Source: Terfezia claveryi (taxonomy: Eukaryota > Ascomycota > Pezizomycetes > Pezizales > Pezizaceae). From it: a DNA stretch of 64,000 nt. Of this stretch, positions 20,906 through 49,250 are shown one piece after another. The stretch lies in contig WHUX01000105.1 in NCBI GenBank assembly GCA_015179025.1, positions 62,001-126,000 of the forward strand. Reading direction: 5' to 3'. The translations under genes were made by a program, and so were the position numbers. Position 1 is the stretch's first letter. Every line of letters starts with the position of its first letter. The notes below the pieces were generated by a model. The model had not been told where the DNA came from. It ran no database searches and was given only the letters and a program-made list of their open reading frames with translations.

Positions 20906-23412
20906 CATCAGCAAAAAAAAATGTGCATCAGGACGTACCACCAAGCGTCCGGACGCGAGTTTGCGTGCTCTGCGTCCTGTGCGTCTGGACGTACTAGAAC
21001 GTTGCCCCCTCACCTGTGACGCAACACCAATGCTGGGCAGTTGCTCTCGCATCTGGACGCACTGGAACGTTGCCCCCTCGCCTGGGACGCAACACTAATG
21101 CTGGGCAGTTGATCTCGCATCTGGGACGCACTGGGATATTGCCCCCATGCCTGGGACGCAAGCATACATGCAACCTTTGTCCCGACATACTTGGTGGGTA
21201 AACACAACCCGCTTACAGCTTGCATCTGCTACGTTCTTACACCAGCCAGCTATGTAGCCGGGTTTGCAACCTTTGAATATGCGTGCAGCAGAAATATTCA
21301 TTGTATTCGCCAATTATTATATACACAGAGAGGTATTTAGCAATAGATATGTACACGGAACATGTGTGCAGCAATACTCGCTCTAACCCTTGGCCTAAGC
21401 TTCGCTCTAACTCTTGCTCTACCAACCAGACTACTCTCGCTCTAATGCTCGCTCTAATTCTCACTCTAAGCTCTCTTTAATACTCGCTGTAAAATGCTGG
21501 GAATAACGAGCAAAGGGAAAAAGCGCGGGGAAGGGAAGTATATATACAGGAAAACCATAGTTGCCAAGGCCGATTGCTAAGGCCGACAATTTAGACTTTC
21601 CGAAGACAATGAGATAGGGGATAATAAGAGAAGTGGCAGAACAGAGATTAACGGCACTCAGCCCCCCTTTCGCACGCGGGTGCCGTACTACTCAATGCCT
21701 GGCCTGGTAATAGTCATATTGGGAAATCGTAGTCGTGGTACTGCGAAAGAGACAAGTACTGCGATATGTGCGGAGTTCACGCTTTGTGATATATCCCGTA
21801 GGAATTCATGCATTCACGGGCATATATATATAAGTATCCGAAAGCACGAGTTTCTCGCATATATATATAAGTCTCCAAAAGCACGAGTTTCTCGCATATA
21901 TATATATAAGCCTGCGAATGCATGGATTTTTCGCATATATATATATATGTCTCCAAAAGCACGAGTTTCTCCCACATATATATATATGTCTCCAAAAGCG
22001 CGAATTTCTCGCACATATATATATATGTCTCAAAAAGCACGAACTTCTCGCACATATATATATATGTCTCAAAAAGCACGAGTTTCTCGTATATATATAT
22101 ATAAGCCTGCGAATGTATGGATTTCTCACATATATATATATAAGTCTGCGAATGCATGGATTTCTCGCATATATATATATATGTCTCCAAAAGCACGAGT
22201 GTCTTGCACATATATATATAAGTCTCCAAAAGCACGAGTTTCTCGCATATATATATATATAAGCCCGCGAATGCATAGATTTCTCACATATATATATATA
22301 TATAAGCCCGCGAATGCATGGATTTCTCGCATATATATATATAAGCAGCGAGCACATGGGTTTCTCGCATATATATACTTATATGAGCCCGCGCATGCAT
22401 GAATTCCTACGGGATATATCACAAAGCGTGAACTCCGCACATATCGCAGTACTTGTCTCGTTCGCAGTACCACGACTACGATTTCAGGCATTGAGTAGTA
22501 CGGCACCCGCGTGCGAAAGGGGGGCTGAGCGCCGTTGATCACTGTCATGCCACTTCTCTTATTATCCCCTATCTCATTATCTTCGGAAAGTCTAAATTGT
22601 CGTCCTTAGCAGTCGGCCTTGGCAACTATGGTTTTCCTGTATATATACTTCCCTTCCCCGCGCTTTTTCCCTTTGCTCATTATTTCCAGCATATTACAGC
22701 GAGTATTAGAGAGAGCATTAGAGCGAGCATTAGAGCGAGAGTAGTCTGGTTGGTAGAGCGAAAGATAGAGCGATTGATACAACGAGAGTTAGAGCGAAGC
22801 TTAGGCCAAGGGTTAGAGCAAGTGTTGCTGCACACATGTTCCGTGTACATATCTATTGCTAAATACCTCTCTGTGTATATAATAATTGGCGAATACAATG
22901 AAGATTTCTGCTGCACGCATATTCAAAGGTTGCAAACCCGGCTACATAGCTGGCTGGTGTAAGAACGTAGCAGATGCAAGCTGTAAGAGGGTTGTGTTTA
23001 CCCACCAAGTGTGTCGGAACAAAGGTTGCATGTATGCTTGCGTCCTAGGCACGGGGGCAACATCCCAGTGCATCCCAGATGCGAGAGCAACTGCCCAGCA
23101 TTGGTGTTGCGTCCCAGGCGAGGGGGCAACGTTCCAGTGCGTCCCAAGCGCGGTGGCAAAGTCCCAGTGTGTCCCAGATGCGAGAGCAACTGCCCAGCAT
23201 TAGTGTTGCGTCCCAGGCGTGTGAGCAACGTCACAGTGCATCCTAGACGCGAGCGCAACTGCCAAGAATTGGTGTTGTATCCCAGGCATGTGAGCAACGT
23301 CCCAGTACGTCAGGACGCTGGCACAACAAGCGTTCGCGTCCTGATTTTGAGTTATCGTCCCGTGCGTTACATGTGTCTGACGCACAGGACGAAAATATTA
23401 TTTTTGCTGATG
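20906..23412 (+). mobile_element. E1, non-coding TIR/hairpin element (unit 1)
   Basis: 2507 bp. Ends CATCAGCAAAAA / its inverse; 2-bp TSD CC (20904-20905, 23413-23414); removal restores the integrase frame. Distinct left and right ends with many GCGTCC motifs. Long inverted arms (about 21053-21815 and 22395-23145) surround an AT-rich minisatellite core. Unlike E2 and E3, the 12-bp repeat zones in its arms are degenerate. No coding capacity beyond repeat-derived frames. Superfamily not assigned. Confidence 0.85.
21815..22400. repeat. E1 core minisatellite
   Basis: Units of about 37-39 bp: (TA)n plus GTCTCCAAAAGCACGAG or GCCTGCGAATGCATGG plus TTTCTCGCA. Two unit types are interspersed, mostly in one orientation. 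Confidence 0.9.
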
Positions 23413-23815
23413 CCTACGCCCAAGCCAGGCAAGTGGAGTATGCCAATGGGTTCCGGTTGCCAGCTCCTAAATACCACCCAGGGGACCAAGTATGGCTATC
23501 TAGCAGACACTTCCGAACAGAACGGCCCTTCCGCAAACTGGACCATAAGTTCTTAGGCCCCTTCGAGGTGCTAGGCGCTGTAGGCACTCATGCCTATCGA
23601 TTGAGGTTTCCCAAGGACATCAAACGCCACCCGGTCATTCATGTCTCGGAGATCGAGCCAGCCGCGGACGATCCTCTTCGAGGTCAAAGGCATCCGCCAC
23701 CTCCTCCCGTGGTGATTGCAGGAGAAGAGGAGTGGGAGGTTGAGGAGGTACTGGACTCCAGGAAGCACTCTGGACGAGTTCAGTACAAGGTCAAATGGTT
23801 AGGGGACGAGGAGAC
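23413..23815 (+). pseudogene. pol: Gypsy-B unit 1 integrase C-terminus and chromodomain start
   Basis: Continues after E1: QARQVEYANGFRLPAPKY, the GPY/F-type module (KFLGPFEVLGAVGTHAY; HPVIHVSEIEPA), then the chromodomain EEWEVEEVLDSRKHSG and VQYKVKWLGDEET, cut by E3 at 23816. Chromodomains of such elements bind modified histones and steer integration into heterochromatin. Confidence 0.88.
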
Positions 23816-23907
23816 CATCAGCAAGAAAAAAGTGGCGTCTAGACGCACCGCCCAGCATCCGGACGTGAGAGCTCGCGCAAGTGCGTCCTGTGTGTCTTGT
23901 ACGTCTG

Positions 23908-24030
23908 GACGCCTGGCTGCATTGCAACACAATCAGGACGCCTGGCTGAGTTGAAACACAATCTGGACGCCCGGCTGAGTTGCAATACAATCTGGACGCC
24001 TGGCTGAGTTGCAATACAATCTGGACGCCA
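23908..24030 (+). repeat. 31-bp tandem repeat in E3 left end
   Basis: About four units, each CTGGACGCCTGGCTG followed by AGTTGCAATACAAT, in the subterminal region outside the inverted arms. Confidence 0.85.
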
Positions 24031-24315
24031 TTGGGGCAACTAAAGCCGTCCAGACGCTGGTTGGCATATTTCAATGTCTAGATATTAGAGTTGCTTCCCT
24101 TGGCATCATCAACTCAATTGATGTTGTTAATGCTATAGCTTTGGGCCCCAAATCGCTCTCGTACAATGCACACCCGCTCTAACACCAGCCAGGTGAGTAG
24201 CCGCTATTGCAGCCATTCAATATGCACGCAGCGAAAATATCCATTGTATTCGCTAATACTTAAATACACAGAAGTATTGAGTAATAGATATATACATAAA
24301 ACATGCACTTGCTGC

Positions 24316-24470
24316 TTCAATCGCTCTAATACTCGCTCTAATACTCGCTCCAATAGTCGCTCTAATACTCCCTCCAATACTCGCTCTAATACTCGCTCTA
24401 ATACTCGCCCTAATAGTCGCTTCAATACTCGCTCTCATACTCGCTCTATTACTCGCTCTAATGCTCGCCA
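24316..24470. repeat. 12-bp array, left arm of E3
   Basis: About a dozen units of the type CGCTCTAATACT, inverted relative to 26070-26205. Confidence 0.85.
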
Positions 24471-24774
24471 TAATGTGGTGGGATCTAGAGTGAAGGGAAA
24501 ATGCACGGGGAAGGGAGGTATATATACAGGAAAACCATAGTTGCCAAGGCCGACTGCTAAGGCCGACAATTTAGACTTTCCAGAGACAATGAGATAAGCG
24601 ATAACAAGAGAAGTGGCATGACAGTGATCAATGGCGCTCAGCCCCCTTTCGCCCGCGGGTGCCGTACTATTCAATGCCTGGCCTGGTAATAGTCATATTG
24701 GGAAATCGTAGTCGTGGTATTGAGATATGTGCGAGTTCACGCTTTGTGATATGTTTCGTAGGAATTCATGCATT

Positions 24775-25735
24775 CGCGGGTTTATATATATATATACGAG
24801 AAACTCATGCATTCGCGGGCTTATATATATATGCGAGAAACTCGTGCTTTTGGAGACTTATATATATATATACGAGAAACTCGTGCTTTTGGAGACTTAT
24901 ATATATATATGCGAGAAACTCGTGCTTTTGGGGACTTATATATATATATGCGAGAAACTCATGCATTCGCGGGCTTATATATATATGCGAGAAACTCGTG
25001 CTTTTGGAGACTTATATATATATATGCGAGAAACTCGTGCTTTTGAGGACTTATATATATATATGCGAGAAATTCATGCATTCGTGGGCTTATATATATA
25101 TGCGAGAAACTCGTGCTTTTGGAGACTTATATATATATATGCGAGTAACTCATGCTTTTGGAGACTTATATATATATATGCGAGAAACTCGTGCTTTTAG
25201 GGACTTATATATATATATGTGAGAAACTCATGCATTCGCGGGCTTATATATATATGCGAGAAACTCATGCTTTTGGAGACTTATATATATATATGCGAGA
25301 AACTCGTGCTTTTGGGGACTTATATATATATATGCGAAAAACTCATGCATTCGCGGGCTTATATATATATGCGAGAAACTCGTGCTTTTGGAGACTTATA
25401 TATATATATGCGAGAAACTCGTGCTTTTGGGGACTTATATATATATATGCGAGAAACTCGTGCATTCGCGGGCTTATATATATATATGCGAGAAACTCAT
25501 GCATTTGCGGGCTTATATATATATGTGATAAACTCGTGCTTTTGGAGACTTATGTATATATATGCAAGAAACTCGTGCTTTTGGAGACTTATATATATAT
25601 ATGCGAGAAACTCGTGCTTTTGGAGACTTATGTATATATATGCGAGAAACTCGTGCTTTTGGAGACTTATATATATATATGTGCGAGAAACTCGTACTTT
25701 TGGAGACATATATATATAAGCCGGCGAATGCATGA
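24775..25735. repeat. E3 core minisatellite with higher-order order
   Basis: Unit A (39 bp): GCGAGAAACTCGTGC, TTTTGG(A/G)GAC, TTA(TA)n. Unit B (about 37 bp): GCGAGAAACTCATGC, ATTCGCGGGC, TTA(TA)n. Order mostly B-A1-A2 or B-A1-A1-A2, repeated. Confidence 0.9.
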
Positions 25736-26069
25736 GTTTCTCGCATATATATATATAAGCCCGCGAATGCATGAATTCCTACGAAATATATCACAAAGCG
25801 TGAACTCGTACATATCTCAATACCACGACTATGATTTCCCAATATAACTATTACCAGGCCAGGCATTGAATAGTACGGCACCCGCAGGCGAAAGGGGGCT
25901 GAGCGCCATTGATCACTGTCATGCCACTTCTCTTGTTATCCCTTATCTCATTGTCTTCGGAAAGTCTAAATTGTCGGCCTTAGCAGTCGGCCTTTGCAAC
26001 TATGGTTTTCCTGTATATATAACTCCCTTCCCCGCGCATTTTCCCTTCACTCTATATCCCAGCACATTA

Positions 26070-26205
26070 CAGCGAGCATTAGAGTGAGTATTGGAGCGAG
26101 TATTAGAGCGAGTATTAGAGCGAGTATTAGAGCGAGTATTAGAGCGAGTATTAGAGGAGTATTGGAGCGACTATTGGAGCGAGTATTAGAGTGAGTGTTA
26201 GGGCG
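26070..26205. repeat. 12-bp array, right arm of E3
   Basis: Units AGAGCGAGTATT, the mirror of the left-arm array. Confidence 0.85.
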
Positions 26206-26745
26206 ATTAAAGCAGCGAGTGCATGTTTTATGTATATATCTATTACTCAATACTTCTGTGTATATAATTATTAGCGAATACAATGGATATTTCCGCTGCA
26301 TGCATATTCAGTCGCTGCAACAGAGGCTACGCACCTGGCTGGTATTAGAGGGTCGTACATACAAGCTGGTGCATTGTAGAAGAGAGCAATTGTGGGCCTT
26401 CCGTTAGCAACGTCAGCGGTAGAACCTGTAGTGTTGGGGACGAGCAGCCCATTCCATCTTGCGTCCAGGAGGCGCGAGCATCTGCAAAGCGCGTGTATTG
26501 TGTCTCAGACGTGGGAACACACTTGTGTTGCCTTCTAGGAGCAGAAGCACGCTTGTGTTGCGTCCTGGATGCGGGAACACCTGCCAGAGGCGAGTGTTGC
26601 GTCCCAAGCGCAGGCGCCAGCAGCTAGTGCATCCCGACGCACGAGCACCAAGCTTTGGCGTCCTGATCTTGAGTTTTCGTCCTGTACGTCCCGTACGTCC
26701 TATGCGTCCGGACGCATAGGACGCAAACACAATTTCTTGCTGATG

Positions 26746-26841
26746 ACCACCTGGCAACCAGCAGAGGATCTGGAAAACGCCCCTGACCTGGTCACCCTAT
26801 TCCACCAGCGTTACCCTCTCAAGCCTCGCCCAGCTGAATGA
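26746..26841 (+). pseudogene. pol: Gypsy-B unit 1 chromodomain end
   Basis: TWQPAEDLENAPDLVTLFHQ and the pol stop at 26839-26841. The 3' end of the chromodomain, separated from its start by E3. Confidence 0.85.
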
Positions 26842-27024
26842 TATTTTTGTCTTATCTTCGTTGATTTGGAGTTGGAATTATGATTGTTGTTTCTGTTGTT
26901 GTCAGGTTGTTCGGAGTTGGGGTTTTTGTCCTTACCTTGTTGTTGTTGTTTCCTGTGTTGATTTTGCCGGTTATCGTGCCCAGGCCTCCTAGTCGCTGGA
27001 GCTCCGAGCCTAAAGGGGGGATAG
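26842..27024 (+). other. Gypsy-B unit 1 3' untranslated region with polypurine tract
   Basis: T-rich untranslated stretch, ending in a purine run (TAAAGGGGGGATAG, about 27011-27024) directly before the LTR, the usual plus-strand primer position. Confidence 0.75.
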
Positions 27025-27323
27025 TGTCACAACCGTCCTTTCCTAGCCAGGTTTGAGAGTCGGACGGAATCCCGTCCGACTCTCATTATTGTTGATTGAT
27101 ATCGTTGTTATCTCTGTTCCCGAGATAAGGGGTCTCGGGAACCTTATTCCTTCCGGTGGCCTTGGCTAGGAAGGAAGCCTGTATATATAGCTTGCTCTCT
27201 CTGCCCTCTCATTGGATCCCTATCCAACGTCTTGTATACCCAATACAGGACCTTGCTTCCCCCAGCGCTTGTGCACCTCCCTTGTGCACATCCTTGTCTC
27301 GAACAAACAACTCTGCAGTACAG
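27025..27323 (+). repeat. Gypsy-B middle LTR, left part
   Basis: TGTCAC start. Contains a perfect hairpin at 27055-27084 (stems GAGAGTCGGACGG and CCGTCCGACTCTC). Interrupted by E2 after CAGTACAG. Confidence 0.92.
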
Positions 27324-27799
27324 CATCAGCAAAAAGAAATATGCGTCAGGACGCACCACCAAGCGTCCAGACGCGATTTTGCGTCCTGTGCGTCCTATGC
27401 GTCCGGATGTCCCGGGGTATTGCATTACAATCCGGACACAACTAGGGCCCCGCGCTGCGTCCTGACGCCATTGGGGCCCCAAAAGCTGTCCGGACGGTGG
27501 TTGACATAAGCTCAACGTCTGGATGTCAGAGCTCATTGCCATCGTATCCTCAACTCAATTAAGGTTGTTAACGCTATAGGTTCCAAGTCTGGCGTTGCTG
27601 AACCAGGGCCCCAAATCACTCTCTTCTACAATGCACACCCACTACCAGCTTGCATCTACGACGCTCTAACATCGGCCAGGTACGTAGCCACTATTGCAGC
27701 CATTGAATATGCACGCAGCGGAAATATCCATTGTATTCGCTAATAATTATATACACAGAAGTATTGATTAATAGATATATATATAGAGCATGCAATCGC

Positions 27800-27930
27800 T
27801 GCTCCACTCGCTCTAACACTCGCTCCAATACTCGCTCTAATACTCGCTCTAATACTCGCTCTAATACTCGCTCTAATACCCGCCATAATACTCGCTCCAA
27901 TAGTCACTCTAATGCTAGCCGTAATGTGCT
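27800..27930. repeat. 12-bp array, left arm of E2
   Basis: CGCTCTAATACT units, inverted relative to 29090-29250. Confidence 0.85.
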
Positions 27931-28224
27931 AGGATAGACAGCGAAGGGAAAATGCGCGGGGAAGGGAGGTATATAAACAGGAAAACTATAGTTGCTAAGG
28001 CCGACTGGTAAGGCCGACAATTTAGACTTTCCGAAGACAATGAGATAAGGGATAACAAGAGAAGTGGCATGACAGTGATCAATGGCGCTCAGCCCCCTTT
28101 CGCCCGCGGGTGCCGTACTATTCAATGCCTGGCCTGGAAATAGTCATATTGGGAAATCGTAGTCTTTGTATGGAGATATGTGCGGAGTTCACGCTTTGTG
28201 ATATGTTTCGTAGGAATTCATGCA

Positions 28225-28790
28225 TTCGCGGGCATATATATATATGTGTGCGAGAAACTCGTGCTTTTGGGGATATATATATATATATATACGAGAAATC
28301 CATGCATTCGCGGGCATATATATATATATATGTGAGAAACTCGTGCTTTTGGAGATATATATATATATATATATGCGAGAAATCCATGCATTCGGGGGCA
28401 TATATATATATATATGCGAGAAACTCGTGCTTTTGGAGACTTATATATATATATGTGTGAGAAACTCATGCTCTTGGGGACATATATATATATATGCGAG
28501 AAACTCGTGCTTTTGGAGATATATATATATATATATATGCGAGAAATCGATGCATTCGCGGGCATATATATATATATATGCGAGAAACTCGTGCTTTTGG
28601 AGAGTTATATATATATGTGCGAGAAACTCGTGCTTTTGGAGACATATATATACATATATGCGAGAAATCCATGCATTCGGGGGCTTATATGTCTCCAAAA
28701 GCATGAGTTTCTCGCATATATATATATAAGTCTCCAAAAGCACGAGTTTCTCGCGCATATATATATATAAGCCCACGAATGCATGAATTC
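28225..28790. repeat. E2 core minisatellite
   Basis: Same A-type and B-type sequence blocks as in E3, separated by longer TA tracts. Orientation flips near 28690. Confidence 0.88.
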
Positions 28791-29089
28791 CTATGAAACA
28801 TATCACAAAGCGTGAACTCCGCACATATCGCAATACTATGACTACGATTGCCCAATATGACTATTTCCAGGCCAAGCATTGAATAGTACGGCACCCGCGT
28901 GCGAAAGGGGGCTGAGTGCCATTGATCACTGTCATGCCACTTCTCTTGTTATCGCTTATCTCATTGTCCTCGGAAAGTCTAAATTGTCGGCTATAGCAGT
29001 CGGCCTTGGCAACTATTGTTTTCCTGTATATATACCTCCCTTCCCCGCGCATTTTCCCTTCGCTGTCTATCCCAGCACATTACGGCTAG

Positions 29090-29250
29090 CATTAGAGTGA
29101 CTATTGGAGTGAGTATTACGGCGAGTATTAGAGCGAGTATTAGAGCGAGTATTAGAGCGAGTATTAGAGCGAGTATTGGATCGAGTATTAGAGCGAGTAT
29201 TAGAGCGAGTATTAGAGCGAGTATTGGAGCGAGTATTAGAGCGAGTGTTA
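29090..29250. repeat. 12-bp array, right arm of E2
   Basis: Very regular AGAGCGAGTATT units, about a dozen. Confidence 0.88.
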
Positions 29251-29750
29251 AAGCGATTGAAGCAGCGATTGCATGTTCTATATATATATCTATTGCTCAA
29301 TACCTCTTTGTATATAATTTTAGCGAATATAATGGATATTTCTGCTCCATGCATATTCAATGACTGCATTAGTGGTACGTAGCTGGCTGATGTTAGATCG
29401 TAGATGCAAGCGGTGAGCAGGTGTGCATTGTAGAAGAGAGCGATTTGGGGCCCTGGTTCAGCAACGCCAGACGTGGAACCTATAGCGTTGGGGACGAGCA
29501 GCCCGTCTCATGTTGCGTCCAAGAAGTGGTAGCATGCTTCTGTTGCGTCCCAGGCGTGGGAGCACACTTGTATTGCGTCCTGGGCACTGGTGCGCACGAG
29601 TGTTGCATCCCGACGCTGGTGTGCACGAGTGTTGTGTCCCGACGCTGGCGCACTAAGCGTTTGGCGTCCTGATTGTAAGTTCCTGTCCCATGCGTCCTGT
29701 GCGTCGGACGCACAGGAAGACACATGACGCGAATATTTTTTTTGCTGATG

Positions 29751-30005: not shown

Positions 30006-30041
30006 CTACGTTGGATCTTCTCGACCAACTGGTACGCTGTC

Positions 30042-34491: not shown

Positions 34492-37039
34492 CATCAGCAA
34501 AAAAAAATGTGTGTCAGGACGTACCACCAAGCGTCCGGACGCGAGTTTGCATCCTGTGCGTCCTGTGCGTCTGGACGCACTAGAACGTTGCTCCCTCGCC
34601 TGTGACGCAACACCAATGCTAGGCAGTTGCTCTCGCATCTGGACGCACTGGAACGTTGCCCCCTCGCCTGGGACGCAACACCAATACTGGGCAGTTGATC
34701 TCGCATCTGGGACGCACTGGGATATTGCCCCCATGCCTGGGACGCAAGCATACATGCAACCTTTGTCCCAACACACTTGGTGGGTAAACACAACCCGCTT
34801 ACAGCTTACATCTGCTACGTTCTTACACCAGCCAGCTATGTAGCCGGGTTTGCGACCTTTGAATATGCGTGCAGCAGAAATATTCATTGTATTCGCCAAT
34901 TATTATATATACAGAGAGGTATTTAGCAATAGATATGTACACGGAACATGTGTGCAGCAATACTCACTCTAACCCTTGGCCTAAGCTTCGCTCTAACTCT
35001 CGCTCTACCAACCAGACTACTCTCGCTCTAATGCTTGCTCTAATTCTCGCTCTAAGCTCTCTTTAATACTCGCTGTAAAATGCTGGGAATAACGAGCAAA
35101 GGGAAAAAGCGTGGGGAAGGGAAGTATATATACAGGAAAACTATAGTTGCCAAGGCCGATTGCTAAGGCCGACAATTTAGACTTTCCGAAGACAATGAGA
35201 TAGGGGATAATAAGAGAAGTGGCACGACAGTGATCAACGGCGCTCAGCCCCCCTTTCGTACGCGGGTGCCGTACTACTCAATGCCTGGCCTGGTAATAGT
35301 TATATTGGGAAATCGTAGTCGTGGTACTGCGAAAGAGACAAGTACTGCAATATGTGCGGAGTTCACGCTTTGTAATATATCCCGTAGGAATTCATGCATT
35401 CACGGGCATATATATATAAGTATCCGAAAGCACGAGTTTCTCGCATATATATATAAGTCTCCAAAAGCATGAGTTTCTCGCATATATATATATAAGCCTG
35501 CGAATGCATGGATTTTTTGCATATATATATATATGTCTCCAAAAGCACGAGTTTCTCCCACATATATATATATGTCTCCAAAAGCACGAATTTCTCGCAC
35601 ATATATATATATGTCTCCTAAAGCACGAGTTTCTCGCACATATATATATATATGTCTCAAAAAGCACGAACTTCTCGCACATATATATATATGTCTCAAA
35701 AAGCACGAGTTTCTTGTATATATATATATAAGCCTGCAAATGTATGGATTTCTCACATATATATATATAAGTCTGCGAATGCATGGATTTCTCGCATATA
35801 TATATATATGTCTCCAAAAGCACGAGTGTCTCACACATATATATATAAGTCTCCAAAAGCATGAGTTTCTCGCATATATATATATATAAGCCCACGAATG
35901 CATAGATTTCTCGCATATATATATATATATAAGCCCACAAATGCATGGATTTCTCGCATATATATATATAAGCAGCGAGCACATGGGTTTCTCGCATATA
36001 TATACTTATATGAGCCCGCGCATGCATGAATTCCTACGGGATATATCACAAAGCGTGAACTCCGCACATATCGCAGTACTTGTCTCGTTCGCAGTACCAC
36101 GACTACGATTTCAGGCATTGAGTAGTACGGCACCCGCGTGCGAAAGGGGGGCTGAGCGCTGTTGATCACTGTCGTGCCACTTCTCTTATTATCCCCTATC
36201 TCATTATCTTCGGAAAGTCTAAATTGTCGGCCTTAGCAGTCGGCCTTGGCAACTATGGTTTTCCTATATATATACTTCCCTTCCCCGCGATTTTTCCCTT
36301 TGCTCATTATTCCCAGCATATTACAGCGAGTATTAGAGAGAGCATTAGAGCGAGCATTAGAGCGAGAGTAGTCTGGTTGGTAGAGCGAGAGATAGAGCGA
36401 TTGATACAACGAGAGTTAGAGCGAAGCTTAGGCCAAGGGTTAGAGTGAGTGTTGCTGCACACATGTTCCGTGTACATATCTATTGCTAAATACCTCTCTG
36501 TGTATATAATAATTGGCGAATACAATGAAGATTTCTGCTGCACGCATATTCAAAGGTTGCAAACCCGGCTACATAGCTGGCTAGTGTAAGAACATAGCAG
36601 ATGCAAGCTGTAAGCGGGTTGTATTTACCCACCAAGTGTATCGGGACAAAGGTTGCATGTATGCTTGCGTCCCAGGCACGGGGGCAACATCCCAGTGCAT
36701 CCCAGATGCGAGAGCAACTGCCCAGCATTGGTGTTGCATCCCAGGCGAGGGGGCAACGTTCCAGTGCGTCCCAAGCGCAGTGGCAAAGTCCCAGTGCGTC
36801 CCAGATGCGAGAGCAACTGCCCAGCATTAGTGTTGCGTCCCAGGCATGTGAGCAACGTCACAGTGCATCCTAGACGCGAGCGCAACTGCCAAGAATTGGT
36901 GTTGCATCCCAGGCGTGTGAGCAACGTCCCAGTGCGTCAGGACGCTGGCGCAATAAGCGTTCGCGTCCTGATTTTGAGTTATCGTCCCGTGCGTTATATG
37001 CGTCTGACGCACAGGACGAAAATATTATTTTTGCTGATG
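34492..37039 (+). mobile_element. E1' (unit 2 copy of E1)
   Basis: 2548 bp at the same integrase position as E1, same ends. The left flanking base pair reads CG where unit 1 has CC. Contains the same arms and core with small indels. Confidence 0.85.
35400..36020. repeat. E1' core minisatellite
   Basis: About one unit longer than the E1 core (an extra unit near 35620). Confidence 0.88.
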
Positions 37040-37442: not shown

Positions 37443-37527
37443 TATCAGCAAGAAAAAAGTGGCGTCCAGACGCACCGCCCAGCGTCCGGACGTGAGAGCT
37501 CGCGCAAGTGCGTCCTGTGCGTCTTGT

Positions 37528-37656
37528 GCGTCTGGACGCCTGGCTGCATTGCAACACAATCAGGACGCCTGGCTGAGTTGAAACACAATCTGGACGCCCG
37601 GCTGAGTTGCAATACAATCTGGACGCCTGGCTGAGTTGCAACACAATCTGGACGCC
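37528..37656 (+). repeat. 31-bp tandem repeat in E3' left end
   Basis: About four units, as at 23908-24030. Confidence 0.85.
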
Positions 37657-37944
37657 ATTAGGGCAACCAAAGCCGTCCGGACACTGGTTGGCATATTTCA
37701 ATGTCTAGATATTAGAGTTGCTTCCCTTGGCATCATCAACTCAATTGATGTTGTTAATACTATAGCTTTGGGCCCCAAATCGCTCTCGTACAATGCACAC
37801 CCGCTCTAACACTAGCCAGGTGAGTAGCCGCTATTGCAGCCATTCAATATGCACGCAGCGAAAATATCCATTGTATTCGCTAATACTTAAATACACAGAA
37901 GTATTGAGTAATAGATATATACATAAAACATGCACTTGCTGCTT

Positions 37945-38095
37945 CAATCGCTCTAACACTCGCTCTAATACTCGCTCCAATAGTCGCTCTAATACTCCTC
38001 CAATACTCGCTCTAATACTCGCTCTAATACTCGCCCTAATAGTCGCTTCAATACTCGCTCTCATACTCGCTCTATTACTCGCTCTAATGCTCGCC
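37945..38095. repeat. 12-bp array, left arm of E3'
   Basis: CGCTCTAATACT units, mirrored at 39760-39895. Confidence 0.82.
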
Positions 38096-38394
38096 ATAAT
38101 GTGCTGGGATCTAGAGCGAAGGGAAAATGCGCGGGGAAGGGAGGTATATATACAGGAAAACCATAGTTGCCAAGGCCGACTGCTAAGGCCGACAATTTAG
38201 ACTTTCCGAAGACAATGAGATAAGCGATAACAAGAGAAGTGGCATGACAGTGATCAATGGCGCTCAGCCCCCTTTCGCCCGCGGGTGCCGTACTATTCAA
38301 TGCCTAGCCTGGTAATAGTCATATTGGGAAATCGTAGTCGTGGTATTGAGATATGTGCGAGTTCACGCTTTGTGATATGTTTCGTAGGAATTCA

Positions 38395-39425
38395 TGCATT
38401 CGCGGCTTATATATATATATGCGAGAAACTCATGCATTCGCGGGCTTATATATATATACGAGAAACTCGTGCTTTTGGAGACTTATATATATATATGCGA
38501 GAAACTCATGCATTCGCGGGCTTATATATATATGCGAGAAACTCGTGCTTTTGGAGACTTATATATATATATGCGAGAAACTCGTGCTTTTGGAGACTTA
38601 TATATATATATGCGAGAAACTCGTGCTTTTGGGGACTTATATATATATATGCGAGAAACTCATGCATTCGCGGGCTTATATATATATGCGAGAAACTCGT
38701 GCTTTTGGAGACTTATATATATATATGCGAGAAACTCGTGCTTTTGAGAATATACGAGAAACTCATGCATTCGCGGGCTTATATATATATGCGAGAAACT
38801 CGTGCTTTTGGAGACTTATATATATATATGCGAGAAACTCGTGCTTTTGGAGACTTATATATATATATGCGAGAAACTCGTGCTTTTGGAGACTTATATA
38901 TATATATGCGAGAAACTCGTGCTTTTGGGGACTTATATATATATATGCGAGAAACTCATGCATTCGCGGGCTTATATATATATGCGAGAAACTCGTGCTT
39001 TTGGAGACTTATATATATATATGCGAGAAAAAAGTGCTTTTGGGGACTTATATATATATATGCGAGAAACTCATGCATTCGCGGGCTTATATATATATGC
39101 GAGAAACTCGTGCTTTTGGAGACTTATATATATATATGCGAGAAACTCGTGCTTTTGGGGACTTATATATATACATGCGAGAAACTCATGCATTCGTGGG
39201 CTTATATATATATGCGAGAAACTCGTGCTTTTGGAGACTTATGTATATATATGCGAGAAACTCGTGCTTTTGGAGACTTATATATATATATGCGAGAAAC
39301 TCGTGCTTTTGGAGACTTATGTATATATATGCGAGAAACTCATGCTTTTGGAGACTTATATATATATATGTGCGAGAAACTCGTGCTTTTGGAGACATAT
39401 ATATATAAGCCGGCGAATGCATGAG
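38395..39425. repeat. E3' core minisatellite
   Basis: B, A1 and A2 units as in E3 but in a different order, with one truncated unit near 38748-38755 (GAGAATATACGAG). Confidence 0.9.
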
Positions 39426-39759
39426 TTTCTCGCATATATATATATAAGCCCGCGAATGCATGAATTCCTACGAAACATATCACAAAGCGTGAACTCACAC
39501 ATATCTCAATAACACGACTACGATTTCCCAATATGACTATTACCAGGCCAGGCATTGAATAGTACGGCACCCGTGGGCGAAAGGGGGCTGAGCGCCATTG
39601 ATCACTGTCATGCCACTTCTCTTGTTATCCCTTATCTCATTGTCTTCGGAAAGTCTAAATTGTCGGCTTTAGCAGTCGGCCTTGGCAACTATGGTTTTCC
39701 TGTATATATAACTCCCTTCCCCGCGCATTTTCCCTTCGCTCTATATCCCAGCACATTAC

Positions 39760-39895
39760 AGTGAGCATTAGAGTAAGTATTGGAGCGAGTATTAGAGCGA
39801 GTATTAGAGCGAGTATTAGAGCGAGTATTAGAGCGAGTATTAGAGTAGTATTAGAGCCACTATTGGAGCGAGTATTAGAGTGAGTGTTAGGGCGA
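39760..39895. repeat. 12-bp array, right arm of E3'
   Basis: AGAGCGAGTATT units. Confidence 0.82.
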
Positions 39896-40434
39896 TTAAA
39901 GCAGCGAGTGCATGTTTTATGTATATATCTATTACTCAATACTTCTGTGTATATAATTATTAGCGAATACAATGGATATTTCCGCTGCATGCATATTCAG
40001 TCACTGCAACAGAGGCTACGCACCTGGCTGGTATTAGAGGGTCGTACATACAAGCTGGTGCATTGTAGAAGAGAGCGATTGTGGGCCTTCCGTTAGCAAC
40101 ACCAGCGGTAGAACCTGTAGCGTTGGGGACGAGCAGCCCATTCCATCTTGCGTCCAGGAGGCGCGAGCATCTGCAAAGCGCGTGTGTTGCGTCCCAGACG
40201 TGGGAACACACTTGTGTTCCCTTCTAGGAGCAGAAGCATGCTTGTGTTGTATCCTGGATGCGGGAACACCTGCCAGAGGTGAGTGTTGCGTCCCAAGCGT
40301 GGGCGCCAGCAGCTAGTGCGTCCCGACGCACGAGCACCAAGCTTTGGCATCCTGATCTTGAGTTTTCGTCTTGTGCGTCCTATGCGTCCTATGCGTCCGG
40401 ACGCACAGGACGCAAACACAATTTCTTGCTGATG

Positions 40435-41012: not shown

Positions 41013-41489
41013 CATCAGCAAAAAGAAATATGCGTCAGGACGCACCACCAAGCATCCAGACGCGATTTTACGTCCTGTGCGTCCTGTACGTCCGGATGCC
41101 CCGGGGTATTGCATTACAATCCGGACGCAACTAGGGCTCCGCGCTGCGTCCTGACGCCATTGGGCCCCAAAAGCCGTCCGGACGGTGGTTGACATAAGCT
41201 CAACGTCTGGATGTCAGAGCTCATTGCCATCGCGTCCTTAACTCAATTGAGGTTGTTAACGCTATAGGTTCCACGTCTGGCGTTGGTGAACTAGGGCCCC
41301 AAATCACTCTCTTCTACAATGCACACTCGCTACCAGCTTGCATCTACGACGCTCTAACATCGGCCAGGTACGTAGCCACTATTGCAGCTATTGAATATGC
41401 ACACAGCGGAAATATCCATTGTATTCGCTAATAATTATATACACAGAAGTATTGATTAATAGATATATATATAGAGCATGCAATCGCTG

Positions 41490-41610
41490 CTCCACTCGCT
41501 CTAACACTCGCTCCAATACTCGCTCTAATACTCGCTCTAATACTCGCTCTAATACTCACTCTAATACTCGCCGTAATACTCGCTCCAATAGTCACTCTAA
41601 TGCTAGCTGT
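41490..41610. repeat. 12-bp array, left arm of E2'
   Basis: CGCTCTAATACT units. Confidence 0.82.
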
Positions 41611-41723
41611 AATGTGCTGGGATAGACAGCGAAGGGAAAATGCGCGGGGAAGGGAGGTATATAAACAGGAAAACCATAGTTGCCAAGGCCGACTGGTAAG
41701 GCCGACAATTTAGACTTTCCGAA

Positions 41724-42362
41724 TGTTGAAAATAATCATTTCCTTTCGATATAGTTAAGTATTTCCATACAATACATCGTTCTCTCTTACGATTACTTCT
41801 ACATCATGCTGATACCCAATATGGACACTTGCTACCCGATTAAGGACTTCTGTATTATTTCTTTCACATGTGTCACATGTCGTTTCACATGTTCTTATTA
41901 TCTTTGCTTACTTTCCTAACTTAGTATCTATTATCATTGCATGATGCTGCTTTACTACTTAAGGTTACTGCTTACTTGTTTCAGTTGTCATGACTCAACG
42001 ATCATCACTTCTATGACTTTCTGTTATATTCGTTGACTCATATTACTGTCTCAGTCGCACACCTCTATGTATTTCTTCATTTACATGTGCACGATATACT
42101 ATTCTTAGGTTATGTAACTTAGACTTTCTTACTAGATCTTTACCCTCAACTCGTACCGTTATATACGAGCTTCCTACTCCTGTATCTAGTTCTATACACT
42201 TCTCGATTAGACTCAATAGACTGTCTTCTCTCGACATAGTTCAACCATCTGCTCTCTCGCACTTCTGCTCGCTCCCACTCTCTGCTTAATAGCACTACTG
42301 TCCACCGCTACTACCTCCGTAATTACTACCGCGATACCTCCGCTCATAGTAACCTTTCAATA
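41724..42362 (+). repeat. Copia 5' LTR
   Basis: Starts TGTTGAAA and ends TTTCAATA, near-inverted tips. Confidence 0.93.
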
Positions 42363-42376
42363 GGTTATGAGCCCGG
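42363..42376 (+). other. Copia primer-binding site
   Basis: GGTTATGAGCCCGG directly after the LTR is complementary to the anticodon arm of fungal initiator tRNA-Met (GGGCTCATAACC), the half-tRNA priming known for copia and Ty5. Confidence 0.75.
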
Positions 42377-42439
42377 AATAGCTCAGGACAACTCGATAAC
42401 TTTCTCGCATTCACCTTCCCTCCCACACATATCTATACA

Positions 42440-43294
42440 ATGGCATCCAGTTCAGATTCTGGTTCTGGCGGTAAAGGAAAGGCTGTACCCTCTATCTTCC
42501 GACCACCGAAAGACTTCAAGCCTATTCCAGTCAAACTCGACAACATCGAGTCACTTACCGGCAAAGACAACTATGAAGACTGGGCTGATACTGTCAAGAT
42601 GATTATGAGAGGCATGGGTTGTAAGGAACTTGTTATTGAAGGACTTAAACCTGTGACAGATGTGACACAAGAAGAGAAAGAACTCTTCGCAGCTATGGAA
42701 AATCAAGCTATCCTCATGCTAATACAGGTTATCAGCAAACCTATACTAAAGGTCGTCTCTAAGTTTGATTCACCACACGAAATCTGGACTCATCTCAAAG
42801 ACCAGTATTACCGTGATACTCCATTCTCTTTCGTACATCAACTGCGCACACTCTTCACCTTAGCCTCAACCTACACTCCTACTACCTCCTTCGCCGACTT
42901 CATTGAGCAGTATGAGACTGAGTGGTCTCGACTTTACTCTCTCACTGGCTCTTCAGATGAATATCGCAAATCCCTCCGCACTTTCCTTGATAAGGACGAA
43001 GCCAAAAGGGATATCCTCCTCTCCTTCCTCGTCGAACATCACTCTAATATAGTCGACAACCTCTCAACTAAGTCCGACCTTACATATGCCGATGCAAAAT
43101 TACGACTCCTCTCTGTTGGTTCCGAAATCGAAAAACGGGATACTGCTCTCTCTGCCTCCTTCAAGAAGAAAGGCAAGCCTCAACAGCAGCAATCACAACA
43201 ACAGAACAAGGACTCCGATGTGGAATGCACCTATTGCAAGAAGCATCAACTCGGTAAATACACAGGTCACACATGGCAAAGTGCCAGAAGTTGA
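42440..43294 (+). CDS. gag: Copia Gag
   Basis: 284 codons from the first ATG after the PBS (MASSSDSGSGGKGKAV). Copia-type Gag: LTGKDNYEDWADTVKMIMR, KPILKVVSKFDSPHEIWTHL, FADFIEQYETEWSRL; then a Gln-rich linker and the first half of a zinc knuckle (CTYCKKH). The frame slips near 43270-43290, and the following Cys-Gln-Lys and Lys-rich tail continue in frame 1 with pol. Particle protein; probably once continuous with pol. Confidence 0.85.
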   Translation: MASSSDSGSGGKGKAVPSIFRPPKDFKPIPVKLDNIESLTGKDNYEDWADTVKMIMRGMGCKELVIEGLKPVTDVTQEEKELFAAMENQAILMLIQVISKPILKVVSKFDSPHEIWTHLKDQYYRDTPFSFVHQLRTLFTLASTYTPTTSFADFIEQYETEWSRLYSLTGSSDEYRKSLRTFLDKDEAKRDILLSFLVEHHSNIVDNLSTKSDLTYADAKLRLLSVGSEIEKRDTALSASFKKKGKPQQQQSQQQNKDSDVECTYCKKHQLGKYTGHTWQSARS

Positions 43295-46200
43295 AGAAGT
43301 CAAATGAGGATAAGAAGAAGGATAAAAAGAAGGAAGATAAGAAGGAACAGGCTCTTATCGTTGGCAGCTCTGGTAGCTCCAAGGATGAGGCTCTCAGCGT
43401 CAGTAACCCATCCCGAAAAACCATCTGGAAATTCGATACAGCGTGCAGTGCTCACATGACCAATGACATAGGACACTTCGAGAACTTTTCAGAGGATAGT
43501 GGAACTGTAGAAGGAGCTGGCAATAATCTCCTCGAAGCTAAAGGAAAAGGGACAGTCCTTCTTAACTGTCTACTCCCTAACGGCTCTACTTCCACTGTTC
43601 GTCTTGTCAATGTTCGATATGTTCCTTCTCTTGGTCACTCACTGTTTTCTTGGAATGCTGTTCGATCTCGTCTTTCCACTTTTTCTACGGACTCGGGTTT
43701 TATGTTACGAAGAAAGGCAATGATTCTGTGTTATTTATGGTGGAATTTGTTGGAAGTCTCCCGTTTATTATTGAGTCAAATGAAAAGGCATTGGTTTCTT
43801 CCTCTCGAAAAACTATCGATCACTGGCATCAGTCATTCGGTCATCAAGCCATTACTGTCCTCAACATAAAGAACTCTACTCTGACGGTGATATTCTCCCA
43901 ACACCCCCTGATAACTATCATTGCGAGCCATGCATACTCGCCAAATCTACTCACTCTGTCCCTAAGTCTACAACATCTCGTGCCTCCAATATTCTCGAAC
44001 TCATTCACTCAGATCTTAGTGGTAAACTCCCCACACCCTCTTTTGGTGGAGCAAGCTACTTCATCACACTTATTGATGACTACTCTCATGCTTCTTGGGT
44101 CTACTTCCTTAAACAGAAATCCGACTCAACCAAATCAATCCAAGACTTTGTTACCTTGGTTGAAAAGCAAACGTCACACCATGTTAAACGGTTTCGTACT
44201 GACAATGGTGGAGAGTATGTTAACAAAGATCTTGAACAGTTCTTTAAGTCAAAAGGCATCGTGCATGAACTAACGCCCCCTTACTCTCATGAATCTAATG
44301 GTGTAGCTGAACGCTTCAACCGAACAATACAGAACATGATGAGGGCTATGTTGACGAATATGGACAAAAGATTCTGGGCTGAAGCATGCTCAACTTCGAC
44401 CTATCTCCGAAATCGGTCACCTCATAGTGCTGTCAAAGGGAAGACTCCCTACGAGGTCTTTCACGGCAATAAACCTACCATCTCTCACCTTCAACCCTTC
44501 GGTAAGGAATGTTATATACACATACCTGAGGAACGACGACCTGCAGGCAGTAAACTCCTACCACGGGCTGAGAAAGGTATATTCATTGGTTATACTAATA
44601 GCACAGCTATCTATAAGGTCCATGTACCTTCTAGAAAGCATACTTATACAGTTCGAGCACAAGATGTCATTTTCGGACCGAGTACAACTCCAGAAGGGGT
44701 ACCTCCACCTACATCTAACTCGACTAATCCATCACGGTCACCAACTACGAATACTGCTTCTCCTCCTACTTCTCCACTTGAAGTAATCCCATACACTAGC
44801 TCAGAATTCCCAAACGAATATCTCTGGCAACAATGGTGTATACGAAATCCAAAACAAGCAGAAGAATGGTATTTTAAGGGACACCCGCTCGTTCATAAAG
44901 CATGGTTCCCTGGTATGACCTTTCCCATCCGACTGAAACAACATCGGACACAACTACTTCCTCACCACCTATTCCTCCAACATCAACTGCAACGTCATCA
45001 CCTCCTCCACCAGCTCCTGGACCTATATCCAAACCAACTCCACAAGTTCACTTACCTCCTCCACCTCAAAATCGAGATGAATATTCACCACTTACTTCAC
45101 TTCCTCAAGACCTTCGACAATCTTTACCCGATGACTCCAACGATGGAAACTTCACCCGAATCGTTAGTGGAAAAATAGTTAGACCTACAACCATTACCAA
45201 GGCAGGTCGAGCTGTTTTTAAACCAATCAAATTCGGAACTGCACAAGCTCCTATTGTCCCCATAATTGGTACAAAGATACAGTTTGATGGTCGTTCTAGA
45301 TTAATCGAAGACCCACCTGAAGTCTTTGATGAGGATAATGAAGAAGATAAAGTGTTGATCGCTTTAGTCTTACAACATGGTGATGAACCTCGAACGTTTA
45401 AACAGGCTGTTAACTCACCTGATGAAGAAAAATGGAGAAAGGCTATGAACGATGAGTTGGAAGCTATGAAGGATCAAGATGTTTGGAAAGTGGTTCCAAC
45501 ACCACAGGATAGGAATATTATTGGAAGCAAGTGGGTATTTAAGATTAAGCGAGATGCTAATGGGAATATCGATCGGTACAAGGCTCGTCTAGTTGCTCAA
45601 GGTTTCTCTCAACAACCCGGCACAGACTTCGATGAAATCTTCTCTCCTGTTGTCCGATACGACTCTCTCCGCCTCCTTATTGCTTTATCTGCCACTTCCA
45701 ATGGGAACCTCAACAAATGGATATCAAAGCAGCCTTCCTTTATGGCTCTTTGAATGAAATTATCTACATGCAACTCCCGGAAGGCACCCGGATTGACGGC
45801 ATGTGTGCTAAACTTAACCGATCCATTTATGGATTAAAGCAGTCTCCTCGTCAGTGGTATGGACGATTAACATCTTTCCTCCTGACAATAGGTTTCTCTG
45901 CTTGTGCCTTTGACCCCTGCGTCTTCGTCCATAAGTCTGGCACAATCATACTCGCCCTTTATGTCGACGACATTACTTTATTCGGATATAAAGACTCAGC
46001 CATTATGAAGTCTACCAAACAGTCACTCAAACGAGAGTTTAAGTTAACTGATATGGGTAACTTACATTGGCTTCTAGGAATTCGAATTGAGTACTCTAAG
46101 CACAGTATCACACTATCCCAATCCTCCTACATCGACAAGATCCTCGAACGTTTCGGTATGATGGACTGCAACCCCGTCACTCTTCCTCTTGACTCGAACC

Positions 46201-46899
46201 ATACTCTTCGACAATGCACAGATGAAGATGAGGTTACCGACATCTCCCTCTATCAACAAATCGTTGGATCACTCATGTATGCAGTTATTGGAACACGTCC
46301 TGACCTGGCTTACTCTGTAACTCTTCTCTCACAATTCTCTCACAAACCATCGAAGGATCACCTCGGAGCAGTTAAACGAGTCCTACGCTACCTTAAGGGT
46401 ACTCGCGATCTTACCTTGACCTACAAACTCGGACAACCTCTTTCACTCGAAGGATTTACTGATTCAGACTTTGCTGGATGTCGTGACACTCGACGGTCGA
46501 CCTCAGGATATATCTTCAAGCTCGCCTCTTGTACTATCTGCTGGAGATCACAAAAACAAAAATGCGTGACAACCTCCACTACCGAAGCAGAATACATTGC
46601 TGGTTCTACTGCTGCTAAACAACAAATTTGGCTTCAGAAGCACTAAGTGAGCTCTCTATTAAAGATATTCCTCTGCCCTCTCTTGTGACAATAACGGCTC
46701 TATCGACCTGTCTCATAATCCTCGAATCTCCGATAAGTCAAAGCATATTGACGTTGCTTACCACTTCGTCCGCGAACTCGTTAACTCCGGCACTATCACG
46801 CTGTTGCACATTCCTGGTGAACACAATCCAGCGGACATATGCACAAAGGCCTTTCCTGGTCCACGGTTCTCCTATCTCAAAGGATTAATCATGGGATAA
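43273..46899 (+). pseudogene. pol: Copia Pol: protease, integrase, RT, RNase H
   Basis: Protease FDTACSAHMTND (about 43434), integrase zinc finger (HWHQSFGHQ) and DDE core (HSDLSGKLP; TDNGGEYV; HESNGVAERFNR, about 44300), C-terminal GKTPYEVFHGNKP, then a Pro/Thr-rich spacer. RT: WVFKIKRDANGNIDRYKARL, AFLYGSLNE, KLNRSIYGLKQSPRQW and the catalytic LYVDDITLF (about 45960-45985). RNase H: FTDSDFAGCRDTRRS, STTEAEYIAG, EHNPADICTK. The reading moves through at least five frame changes (frames starting at 43273, 43650, 44156, 44902, 45717, 46628), so no complete Pol is made. Few nonsense codons: indels rather than RIP broke it. Confidence 0.9.
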
Positions 46900-46913
46900 C
46901 AAGTGAGAAGGGG
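46900..46913 (+). other. Copia polypurine tract
   Basis: CAAGTGAGAAGGGG immediately before the 3' LTR. Confidence 0.75.
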
Positions 46914-47551
46914 TGTTGAAAATAATCATTTCCTTTCGATATAGTTAAGTATTTCCATACAATACATCGTTCTCTCTTACGATTACTTCCACATCATGCT
47001 GATACCCAATATGGACACTTGCTACCCGATTAAGGACTTCTGTATTATTTCTTTCACATGTGTTCACATGTCGTTCACATGTTCTTATTATCTTTGCTTA
47101 CTTTCCTAACTTAGTATCTATTATCATTGCATGATGCTGCTTTACTACTTAAGGTTACTGCTTACTTGTCTCAGTTGTCATGACTCAACGATCACACTTC
47201 TATGACTTTCTGTTATATTCGTTGACTCATATTACTGTCTCAGTCGCACACCTCTATGTATTTCTTCATTTACATGTGCACGATATACTATTCTTAGGTT
47301 ATGTAACTTAGACTTTCTTACTAGATCTTTACCCTCAACTCGTACCATTATATACGAGCTTCCTACTCCTGTATCTAGTTCTATACACTTCTCGATTAGA
47401 CTCAATAGACTGTCTACTCTCGACATAGTTCAACCATCTGCTCTCTCGCACTTCTGCTCGCTCCCACTCTCTGCTTAATAGCACTACTGTCCACCGCTAC
47501 TACCTCCGTAATTACTACCGCGATACCTCCGCTCATAGTAACCTTTCAATA
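46914..47551 (+). repeat. Copia 3' LTR
   Basis: 638 bp, almost identical to 41724-42362. Confidence 0.93.
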
Positions 47552-47739
47552 CCGAAGACAATGAGATAAGGAATAACAAGAGAAGTGGCATGACAGTGAT
47601 CAATGGCGCTCAGCCCTCTTTCGCCCGCGGGTGCCGTACTATTCAATGCCTGGCCTGGAAATAGTCATATTGGGAAATCGTAGTCATTGTATGGAGATAT
47701 GTGCGGAGTTCACGCTTTGTGATATGTTTCGTAGGAATT

Positions 47740-48305
47740 CATGCATGCGCGGGCATATATATATATATGTGCGAGAAACTCATGCTTTTAGGGACATATA
47801 TATATATAAATGCGAGAAATCCATGCATTCGCGGGCATATATATATATATATGCGAGAAACTCGTGCTTTTGGAGACATATATATATATATATATGCGAG
47901 AAATCCATGCATTCGCGGGCATATATATATATATATGCGAGAAAGTCGTGCTTTTGGAGACTTATATATATATATGTGCGAGAAACTCATGCTCTTGGGG
48001 ACATATATATATATATGCGAGAAACTCGTGCTTTTGGAGACATATATATATATATATAGGCGAGAAATGGATGCATTCGCGGGCATATATATATATATAT
48101 GTGAGAAACTCGTGCTTTTGGAGAGTTATATATATATGTACGAGAAACTCATGCTTTTGGAGACATATATATACATATATGCGAGAAATCCATGCATTCG
48201 CGGGCTTATATGTCTCCAAAAGCATGAGTTTCTCGCATATATATATATAAGTCTCCAAAAGCATGAGTTTTTCGCGCATATATATATATAAGCCCACGAA
48301 TGCAT
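47740..48305. repeat. E2' core minisatellite
   Basis: A and B blocks with long TA tracts, as at 28225-28790. Confidence 0.88.
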
Positions 48306-48609
48306 GAATTCCTACGAAACATATCACAAAGCGTGAACTCCGCACATATCGCAATACCACGACTACGATTGCCCAATATGACTATTTCCAGGCCAGGCAT
48401 TGAATAGTACGGCACCCACGTGCGAAAGGGGGCTGAGCGCCATTGATCACTGTCATGCTACTTCTCTTGTTATCGCTTATCTCATTGTCCTTGGAAAGTC
48501 TAAATTGTCGGCCATAGCAGTCGGCCTTGGTAACTATCGTTTTCCTGTATATATACCTCCCTTCCCCGTGCATTTTCCCTTCGCTGTCTATCCCAGCACA
48601 TTACGGCTA

Positions 48610-48755
48610 GCATTAGAGTGACTATTGGAGCGAGTATTACGGCGAGTATTAGAGCGAGTATTAGAGCGAGTATTAGAGCGAGTATTAGAGCGAGTATTAG
48701 AGCGGGTATTAGAGCGAGTATTGGAGCGAGTATTAGAGCGAGTGTTAAAGCGATT
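48610..48755. repeat. 12-bp array, right arm of E2'
   Basis: AGAGCGAGTATT units, about one fewer than in E2. Confidence 0.85.
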
Positions 48756-49250
48756 GAAGCAGCAATTGCATGTTCTATATATATATCTATTGCTCAATAC
48801 TTCTATGTATATAATTTTAGCGAATACAATAAAAATTTCTGCTCCATGCATATTCAATGGCTGCATTAGTGGTACGTAGCTGGCTGATGTTAGAGCGTCG
48901 TAGATGCAAGCGGTGAGCGGGTGTGCATTGTAGAAGAGAGCGATTTGGGGCCCTGGTTCAGCAACGCCAGACGTGGAACCTATAGCGTTGGGGACGAGCA
49001 GCCCGTCTCATGTTGCGTCCAAGAAGTGGTAGCATGCTTCTGTTGCGTCCCAGGCATGGGAGCACACTTGTGTTGCGTCCTGGGCGCTGGTGCGCACGAG
49101 TGTTGCATCCCGACGCTGGTGCGCACGAGTGTTGCGTCCCGACGCTGGCGCACCAAGCGTTTGGCGTCCTGATTGTAAGTTCCTGTCCTATGCGTCCTGT
49201 GCGTTGGACGCACAGGAAGACACATGACGCGAATATTTTTTTTGCTAATG

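Follow-up and report, generated by a model that had tools for sequence, protein, structure and literature searches.

Non-Autonomous Foldback Elements with PlavakaB-Type Ends in the Genome of Terfezia claveryi

The stretch of DNA considered here, called the window, comprises 64,000 nucleotides of contig WHUX01000105.1 (assembly GCA_015179025.1) of the pezizalean fungus Terfezia claveryi. It carries six copies of palindromic elements, named E1, E2, E3, E1', E2' and E3'. E1-E3 are very probably foldback-type DNA transposons, non-autonomous members of the PlavakaB lineage, which belongs to the CMCT clade and is related to CACTA/EnSpm and Transib/RAG1. An earlier note, prepared from this DNA alone, had described them as an undescribed-looking family.

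Elements of the Window

The tip CATCAGCAARAAA matches the window at 12 places with at most one mismatch, all of them at element boundaries. Only 0.23 matches are expected by shuffling, and none of 100 shuffles of the window reached 12. CATCA is exact in 10 of the 12 tips; the others differ by one base (TATCA at the left of E2' and CATTA at the right of E3'). The tips pair into six elements whose shared boundaries are those that the earlier note had proposed. The elements, their host and their empty target, with target site duplications (TSDs), are the following:

16168..29750, + strand: first unit of a tandem duplication, a Ty3-like long terminal repeat (LTR) element with gag and reverse transcriptase (RT) domains, carrying E1-E3; the second unit starts at 29751
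20906..23412, + strand: E1, very probably a non-autonomous PlavakaB element, 2507 bp; TSD CC at 20904-20905 and 23413-23414
23816..26745, + strand: E2, 2930 bp; TSD AC at 23814-23815 and 26746-26747
27324..29750, + strand: E3, 2427 bp, inside an LTR; TSD AG at 27322-27323 and 29751-29752
34492..37039, + strand: E1', tandem-duplicate copy of E1; one base of the left TSD is changed (CG vs CC)
37443..40434, + strand: E2', duplicate of E2 in the second unit; its left tip reads TATCAGC
41013..49250, + strand: E3', duplicate of E3 in the second unit, interrupted at about 41724-47551 by a copia-like element
55250..58825, - strand: uninterrupted paralogue of the target, with the empty E1 site at 56182-56184, the empty E2 site at 55779-55783 and the E3 site near 55250

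The E3 site is also uninterrupted in the LTR near 16169. Side-by-side comparison with these uninterrupted paralogues yields the TSDs CC (E1), AC (E2) and AG (E3), so that the duplication is of 2 bp in the three insertions of the window, as previously claimed.

When the window is compared with itself, 16168-28035 aligns with 29751-41723 at 96.3% identity over 11,982 columns. With two units so similar, the six copies go back to three insertions into a single Ty3-like LTR element, which underwent tandem duplication afterwards; E1', E2' and E3' are the duplicates of E1, E2 and E3. This tandem duplication rules out six independent insertions; the count of six given before holds for the elements present but not for the insertions, which are three, duplicated once. 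Three insertions would have hit one LTR element, and recombination between LTRs would then have duplicated the whole.

The copia-like retrotransposon within E3' (41724-47551) possesses Retrotran_gag_2, rve and RVT_2 domains. A separate array of 41 bp repeated 4.4 times is located at 54062-54241; by eye it is unlike the element cores.

The E elements share a common layout, in which 12-bp arrays lie in the arms in mirror orientation and an AT-rich minisatellite of 39-41 bp occupies the centre. The following repeats were found with TRF (Tandem Repeats Finder):

21436-21492 and 22693-22739: short, degenerate mirrored 12-bp arrays of E1
21822..22377: AT-rich 39-bp minisatellite core of E1
24321-24468 and 26066-26206: mirrored 12-bp arrays of E2
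24782..25791: AT-rich 39-bp minisatellite core of E2
27806-27913 and 29091-29256: mirrored 12-bp arrays of E3
28215..28771: AT-rich 39-41-bp minisatellite core of E3

Palindromic arms were measured in seven copies (E3' left out), including two of a fourth subfamily, E4, that is presented below. The arms of E2 and E2' measure 657-696 bp and are 90.5-91.8% identical, while in E1, E1' and E3 the palindrome takes up most of the element (79-81% identity, or 79-87% with the two E4 copies included). Each 300-bp end contains 6-10 GCGTC/GACGC motifs, against shuffle means of 0.74-0.88; the six motifs of the E1 right end equal the maximum among 500 shuffles. The GC content is 55-57% in the 300-bp ends, and 44-46% and 36-39% in the arms and cores, respectively, of the seven copies. 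No transposase was detected in the window by tblastn of three Plavaka frames at E≤1, and Rfam gave no match at the gathering score. All these components had been anticipated in the earlier note: GCGTCC-rich subterminal regions, inverted arms, mirrored 12-bp arrays (degenerate in E1), an AT-rich core and the lack of a transposase. Long inverted repeats holding tandem repeats, without a transposase, constitute the structure of a foldback element.

Copies and Target Sites in the Genome

The genome searched comprises 72,558,070 bases in 794 contigs. It contains the exact tip CATCAGCAARAAA at 577 sites (295+282 on the two strands), while the reversed control occurs at 3+0. Probes made of the E1 left, E1 right, E3 right and E2 right ends each match at least 40 or 41 places over at least four fifths of their length. 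These are lower bounds, 40 candidates having been scored of 291, 212, 300 and 231, respectively. The boundaries seen in the window are thus repeated at other loci.

An exact 2-bp TSD is present in 20 of 20 paired E1 copies, which represent 19 distinct sites since two copies have the same flanks. Nineteen of them span 2.38-3.68 kb and one 5.0 kb; the minisatellite core and the 12-bp arrays may vary in length through repeat slippage or unequal exchange. Outside the window there are 11 facing pairs of exact tips less than 10 kb apart. One of them (C17:119805/120575) was excluded beforehand because its tip types differ, and a 2-bp TSD flanks seven of the other ten. Two of the three pairs without it are probably not single elements but ends of different elements: C31:63120/69451, because both are right ends, and C27:141908/146980, because the tip types differ. 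The pooled TSDs (34, plus GA for the C184 element described below) consist of TA in 12 of 35 cases and of 13 other dinucleotides.

The fourth subfamily, E4, was recognized at two minisatellite loci (contigs C17 and C26) with the variant tips CATCAGGAA..TTGGTGATG and the TSDs TA and AA. These loci, and one on C5, had been chosen for carrying the minisatellite without an exact tip nearby; the C5 locus is an E2-like copy with the left tip only. Exact tips of the E4 type are found 30 times (left) and 41 times (right) in the genome, and not at all in the controls. A right tip is located within 12 kb of 17 of the 30 left tips in element orientation, and of none in the wrong orientation. Thirteen of the 17 pairs span 2.1-2.8 kb and two are near 4 kb; the others are on C374 (7.6 kb) and C699 (8.4 kb). 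No Plavaka match is among those listed for the C374 pair.

Transposase-Bearing Elements

The Plavaka profile (PF18759) matches the genome at least 127 times, with 123 of 598 candidates scored, and none of 14 control genomes. In contigs C1-C54, for which the tip listing is complete, an exact tip faces the Plavaka match within 6 kb in nine of the 17 listed cases and faces away from it in none. The earlier note had advised a search for a transposase-carrying partner between such ends, and four were found:

C19: element of 9881 bp with a Plavaka domain, TSD TA; 99% sister on C112, different subterminal DNA
C31: element of 9171 bp with a Plavaka domain, TSD CA
C184: element of about 8284 bp with a Plavaka domain, TSD GA (from comparison with the uninterrupted target); open frame of 532 aa
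C699: element of 8375 bp with a Plavaka domain, TSD TA; open frame of 806 aa

The left end of the C31 element is 91% identical to the right end of E3 over 114 bp, and its right end is like the left end of E3. The right end of the C184 element is 92% identical to the left end of E1 over 88 bp, and its left end resembles the right end of E1 (71-73% over about 420 columns). The C699 element has the same variant tips as E4. These tips are a lineage trait; that they are mutated is ruled out by the E4 copies, which carry the same paired variant. On C26 an E2-like left end (80% over 127 bp) accompanies a degraded Plavaka region, and the other side continues into LTR sequence.

PlavakaB termini have been described as CATCA..TGATG, with TSDs of 2 or 3 bp (Kojima 2025, PMC12730594, section 3.2.2). 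E1-E3 are assigned to non-autonomous PlavakaB because these termini together with TSDs of 2-3 bp mark that group. The sequences show that the E elements and the Plavaka-bearing elements of 8-10 kb share PlavakaB-type ends and 2-bp TSDs. The putative placement of the partner transposases in PlavakaB rests on the termini and on the PF18759 match. A transposase of the matching lineage would bind the tip and the subterminal repeats in trans, excise the element and reinsert it with a 2-bp stagger.

Several observations weigh against this assignment. Among the three of ten further tip pairs without a 2-bp TSD, C31:31382/39411 is unexplained. C26, the candidate parent of E2, has one recognizable end only, and the match is weak. 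Stop codons interrupt the transposase copies of C31 and C26, the C184 tips are mutated, and the C699 frame spans profile positions 41-325; none of the genes is shown to be both complete and intact. The ends of the C19 lineage are poor in GCGTC/GACGC (2 and 1 motifs). Comparison of the E interiors with the parents detected nothing in common beyond the ends, except for the minisatellite in C31.

Seven listed Plavaka matches (C19, C33, C112, C446, C645, C786 and C794) present an open frame of 698 aa without internal stops. Recent activity of the C19/C112 lineage is likely, because these seven frames are open and the C19 and C112 loci are 99% identical over the compared part.

The C31 element has a 34-bp palindromic minisatellite of its own after position 7561 (L075:7680-8342), which the C35 sister (97% identical) lacks in the part compared. 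The element itself sits in an arm of another long palindrome, whose arms are of the CCATACCGGTATGG type and whose core is a related AT-rich minisatellite; the examined bases of that palindrome contain no tip within one mismatch. A repeat with an RT_RNaseH domain at 9666-11873 of the window has relatives into which the C184 and C699 elements are inserted.

The Partner Transposase

The partner transposases contain the conserved residues D, D, C(2)C, H(3)H and E, with C(2)C and H(3-4)H between the second D and the last E. This is the CMCT motif; in alignment A1, C225, C228 and E523 are conserved in 38 of 38 rows, H499 in 37 and H503 in 36. The transposase regions of the parent lineages are about 73-80% identical to each other. 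Among named proteins, the C699 transposase comes closest to those of Tirmania nivea (61%), Kalaharituber pfeilii and T. claveryi, although closer unnamed ones exist; T. nivea and K. pfeilii belong to the Pezizaceae (Pezizales).

Fold comparison of two transposase models (C699 and C112), which rest on alignments with many common members, reveals a RAG1/Transib-like core and a C-terminal BAH-like domain. According to these models, the two PlavakaB transposases look like a combination of both. They are 10-12% identical to RAG1 and differ from the Transib/RAG1 recombinases in the extra C-terminal domain. The C184 frame of 532 aa ends before the BAH-like region. Pfam reports no BAH domain at E≤10 in three transposase frames and five homologues, with filters that drop most weak matches, and a sequence search of solved structures with the C19-type frame gave no match at E≤1. 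A BAH domain in Plavaka was not found in the literature covered here, which consists of titles and abstract openings and has most subscription journals outside its scope; the words "BAH" and "minisatellite" do not occur in PMC12730594.

Ends and Arms of the Subfamilies

End identities were computed over up to 110 bp, the right end being that located 5' of the transposase. The right end of E3 is 90-92% identical to C31/C35 and 70-73% to C184 and C699; its left end is 92% identical to C31, and for both ends the other parents give 64-80%. The E4 right end is 91% identical to C699 (72-75% for other parents). For E1 and E1', C184 is the best match at the right (79-80% vs 71-76%) and at the left (78-80% vs 60-75%). 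End identity thus singles out one transposase-bearing lineage as the closest at the right end for each of E1, E3 and E4, and for E1 and E3 at the left end as well. No parent was identified for the right ends of E2 and E2', which come nearest to C699 (78-79%). At the left, both are 75-78% identical to C26 and 68-76% to the others.

Some left ends also count against a clear pairing with parents. That of E2' is 75% identical to C26, 76% to C31 and 75% to C699, that of E2 being 78% identical to C26. At the left end E4a shares 87% with C31 but 82% with C699, and E4b reaches at most 66% with any parent and only 70% with E4a. By these identities, the E4a and E4b left ends fit no simple parent pairing.

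Among E2, E3 and E4 the arms diverge by 8.5-11.9% and the ends by 18-29%. This difference could be due to plain co-divergence, by which each subfamily and its own autonomous lineage descend from one ancestral pair and the ends, with their CpG-rich GCGTC repeats, evolve about twice as fast as the arms. We give this explanation somewhat less than an even chance. The ratio of end to arm divergence is 2.1-2.5 among E2, E3 and E4 and 1.3-2.6 in the tandem duplicates, where the ends also change faster than the arms and 32 of 34 end changes are transitions. However, an excess of transversions at the ends speaks against co-divergence. Transversions are about equal in the three tandem-duplicate pairs (2 of 660 positions in ends, 9 of 2794 in arms), but ends exceed arms in E2-E3 (11.5% vs 5.1%, p=0.0013), E3-E4a (9.1% vs 3.5%, p=0.0018) and E2-E4a (9.6% vs 3.5%, p=0.0007). 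The parent transposase regions, moreover, are only about 73-80% identical, compared with 88-92% for the E2-E4 arms.

The transversion excess would be expected if one palindromic interior had been re-equipped with the ends of different autonomous PlavakaB lineages, giving rise to E2, E3 and E4. Such an exchange of ends is a tentative refinement of the best explanation, for which the sequence data provide a hint and no proof. It would fit the contrast between arms that are 88-92% identical and ends that are 71-82% identical, and also the right ends of C31 and C699, which differ at 35 of 110 positions while at this end E3 and E4 match their respective parents at 90-92%. However, the five comparisons between E2, E3 and E4a (p 0.0007-0.0045) are not independent and involve few copies, and E4 was counted from the E4a left end only, the E4b left end being too different. 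E1 shows no excess against any other subfamily (p 0.21-0.78), E4a resembles C31 more than C699 at its left end, and misalignment is possible in repetitive subterminal DNA. The ratio for all substitutions falls within the range of the tandem control and can do without an exchange, which is therefore not put forward as demonstrated.

That the palindromic minisatellite forms an independent unit, spread by another route and captured by PlavakaB ends, is unlikely. A related AT-rich array does lie inside the C31 element and not in its C35 sister, and another in the palindrome that hosts C31, where the tip was not seen. However, all three loci chosen without an exact tip (L126-L128) proved to be of E type, two being E4 with both tips and one E2-like with the left tip only, and no boundary or TSD of a separate unit was found.

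Comparison with Known Systems

The E elements agree with PlavakaB, as described in section 3.2.2 of PMC12730594, in the CATCA..TGATG termini and the 2-bp TSD, and their partners in the PF18759 transposase. E1-E4 differ in lacking a transposase and in that their interior is a long palindrome furnished with 12-bp arrays and a core of minisatellite repeats. The families of that section are from Agaricomycotina, whereas the host of the E elements is pezizalean. Foldback non-autonomous PlavakaB elements were not found in the literature within the scope given above, and "non-autonomous" occurs once in PMC12730594, about TET/JBP genes.

CACTA (or CAC) tips are the mark of the CACTA/EnSpm family. The E elements resemble it in ends that start with CA, subterminal repeats, a short TSD and membership of the same CMCT clade, so that the likeness pointed out in the earlier note led in the right direction. 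However, the E tips are CATCAGCAA or CATCAGGAA, not CACTA, and the partner transposases match the Plavaka profile instead. The TSD of 2 bp also differs from that of 3 bp given for rust EnSpm families in PMC12730594.

Tetris, as portrayed in PMC4079207, is likewise a non-autonomous foldback with tandem repeats in its inverted repeats and is thought to be mobilised in trans. It differs in TSDs of 8-10 bp and in that no transposase-bearing partner was found, its authors suggesting Mutator, whereas the E elements have PlavakaB partners. Mutator seems to include the majority of foldbacks (PMC4079207, section 17). For the E elements that superfamily is rejected, given the TSD of 2 bp instead of about 8-10 bp. 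Galileo, according to PMC10990002, was first described as foldback-like and later assigned to the P superfamily.

A new superfamily unrelated to any known transposase, which elements without a transposase and tips other than CACTA might suggest, is highly improbable and is refuted for ends of PlavakaB type, since four elements hold a Plavaka transposase between matching ends with 2-bp TSDs and the termini were already published. As far as the sequences tell, the superfamily is already known, the E elements fitting PlavakaB in every end feature tested. The earlier view that the superfamily was open has to be abandoned, as transposase-bearing elements with such ends exist in the same genome, and the family is not undescribed at that level.

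Significance

A foldback family that looked like an orphan is here assigned to a lineage of transposases with ends published in 2025. Its host lies outside the group for which section 3.2.2 of PMC12730594 describes Plavaka families, although Plavaka proteins of Pezizales are already in databases. Near-shared interiors with different ends provide a natural experiment on the way in which a passenger element follows one transposase or another. In a speculative and rather doubtful extension, the E elements would be modular satellite transposons, whose palindromic minisatellite interior repeatedly swapped ends to follow PlavakaB lineages, and the BAH-like domain on the RAG1-like core of these lineages may steer insertion to silenced, retrotransposon-rich chromatin. 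If it is true that the BAH-like domain reads histone marks, this would link RAG-type transposition with chromatin targeting.

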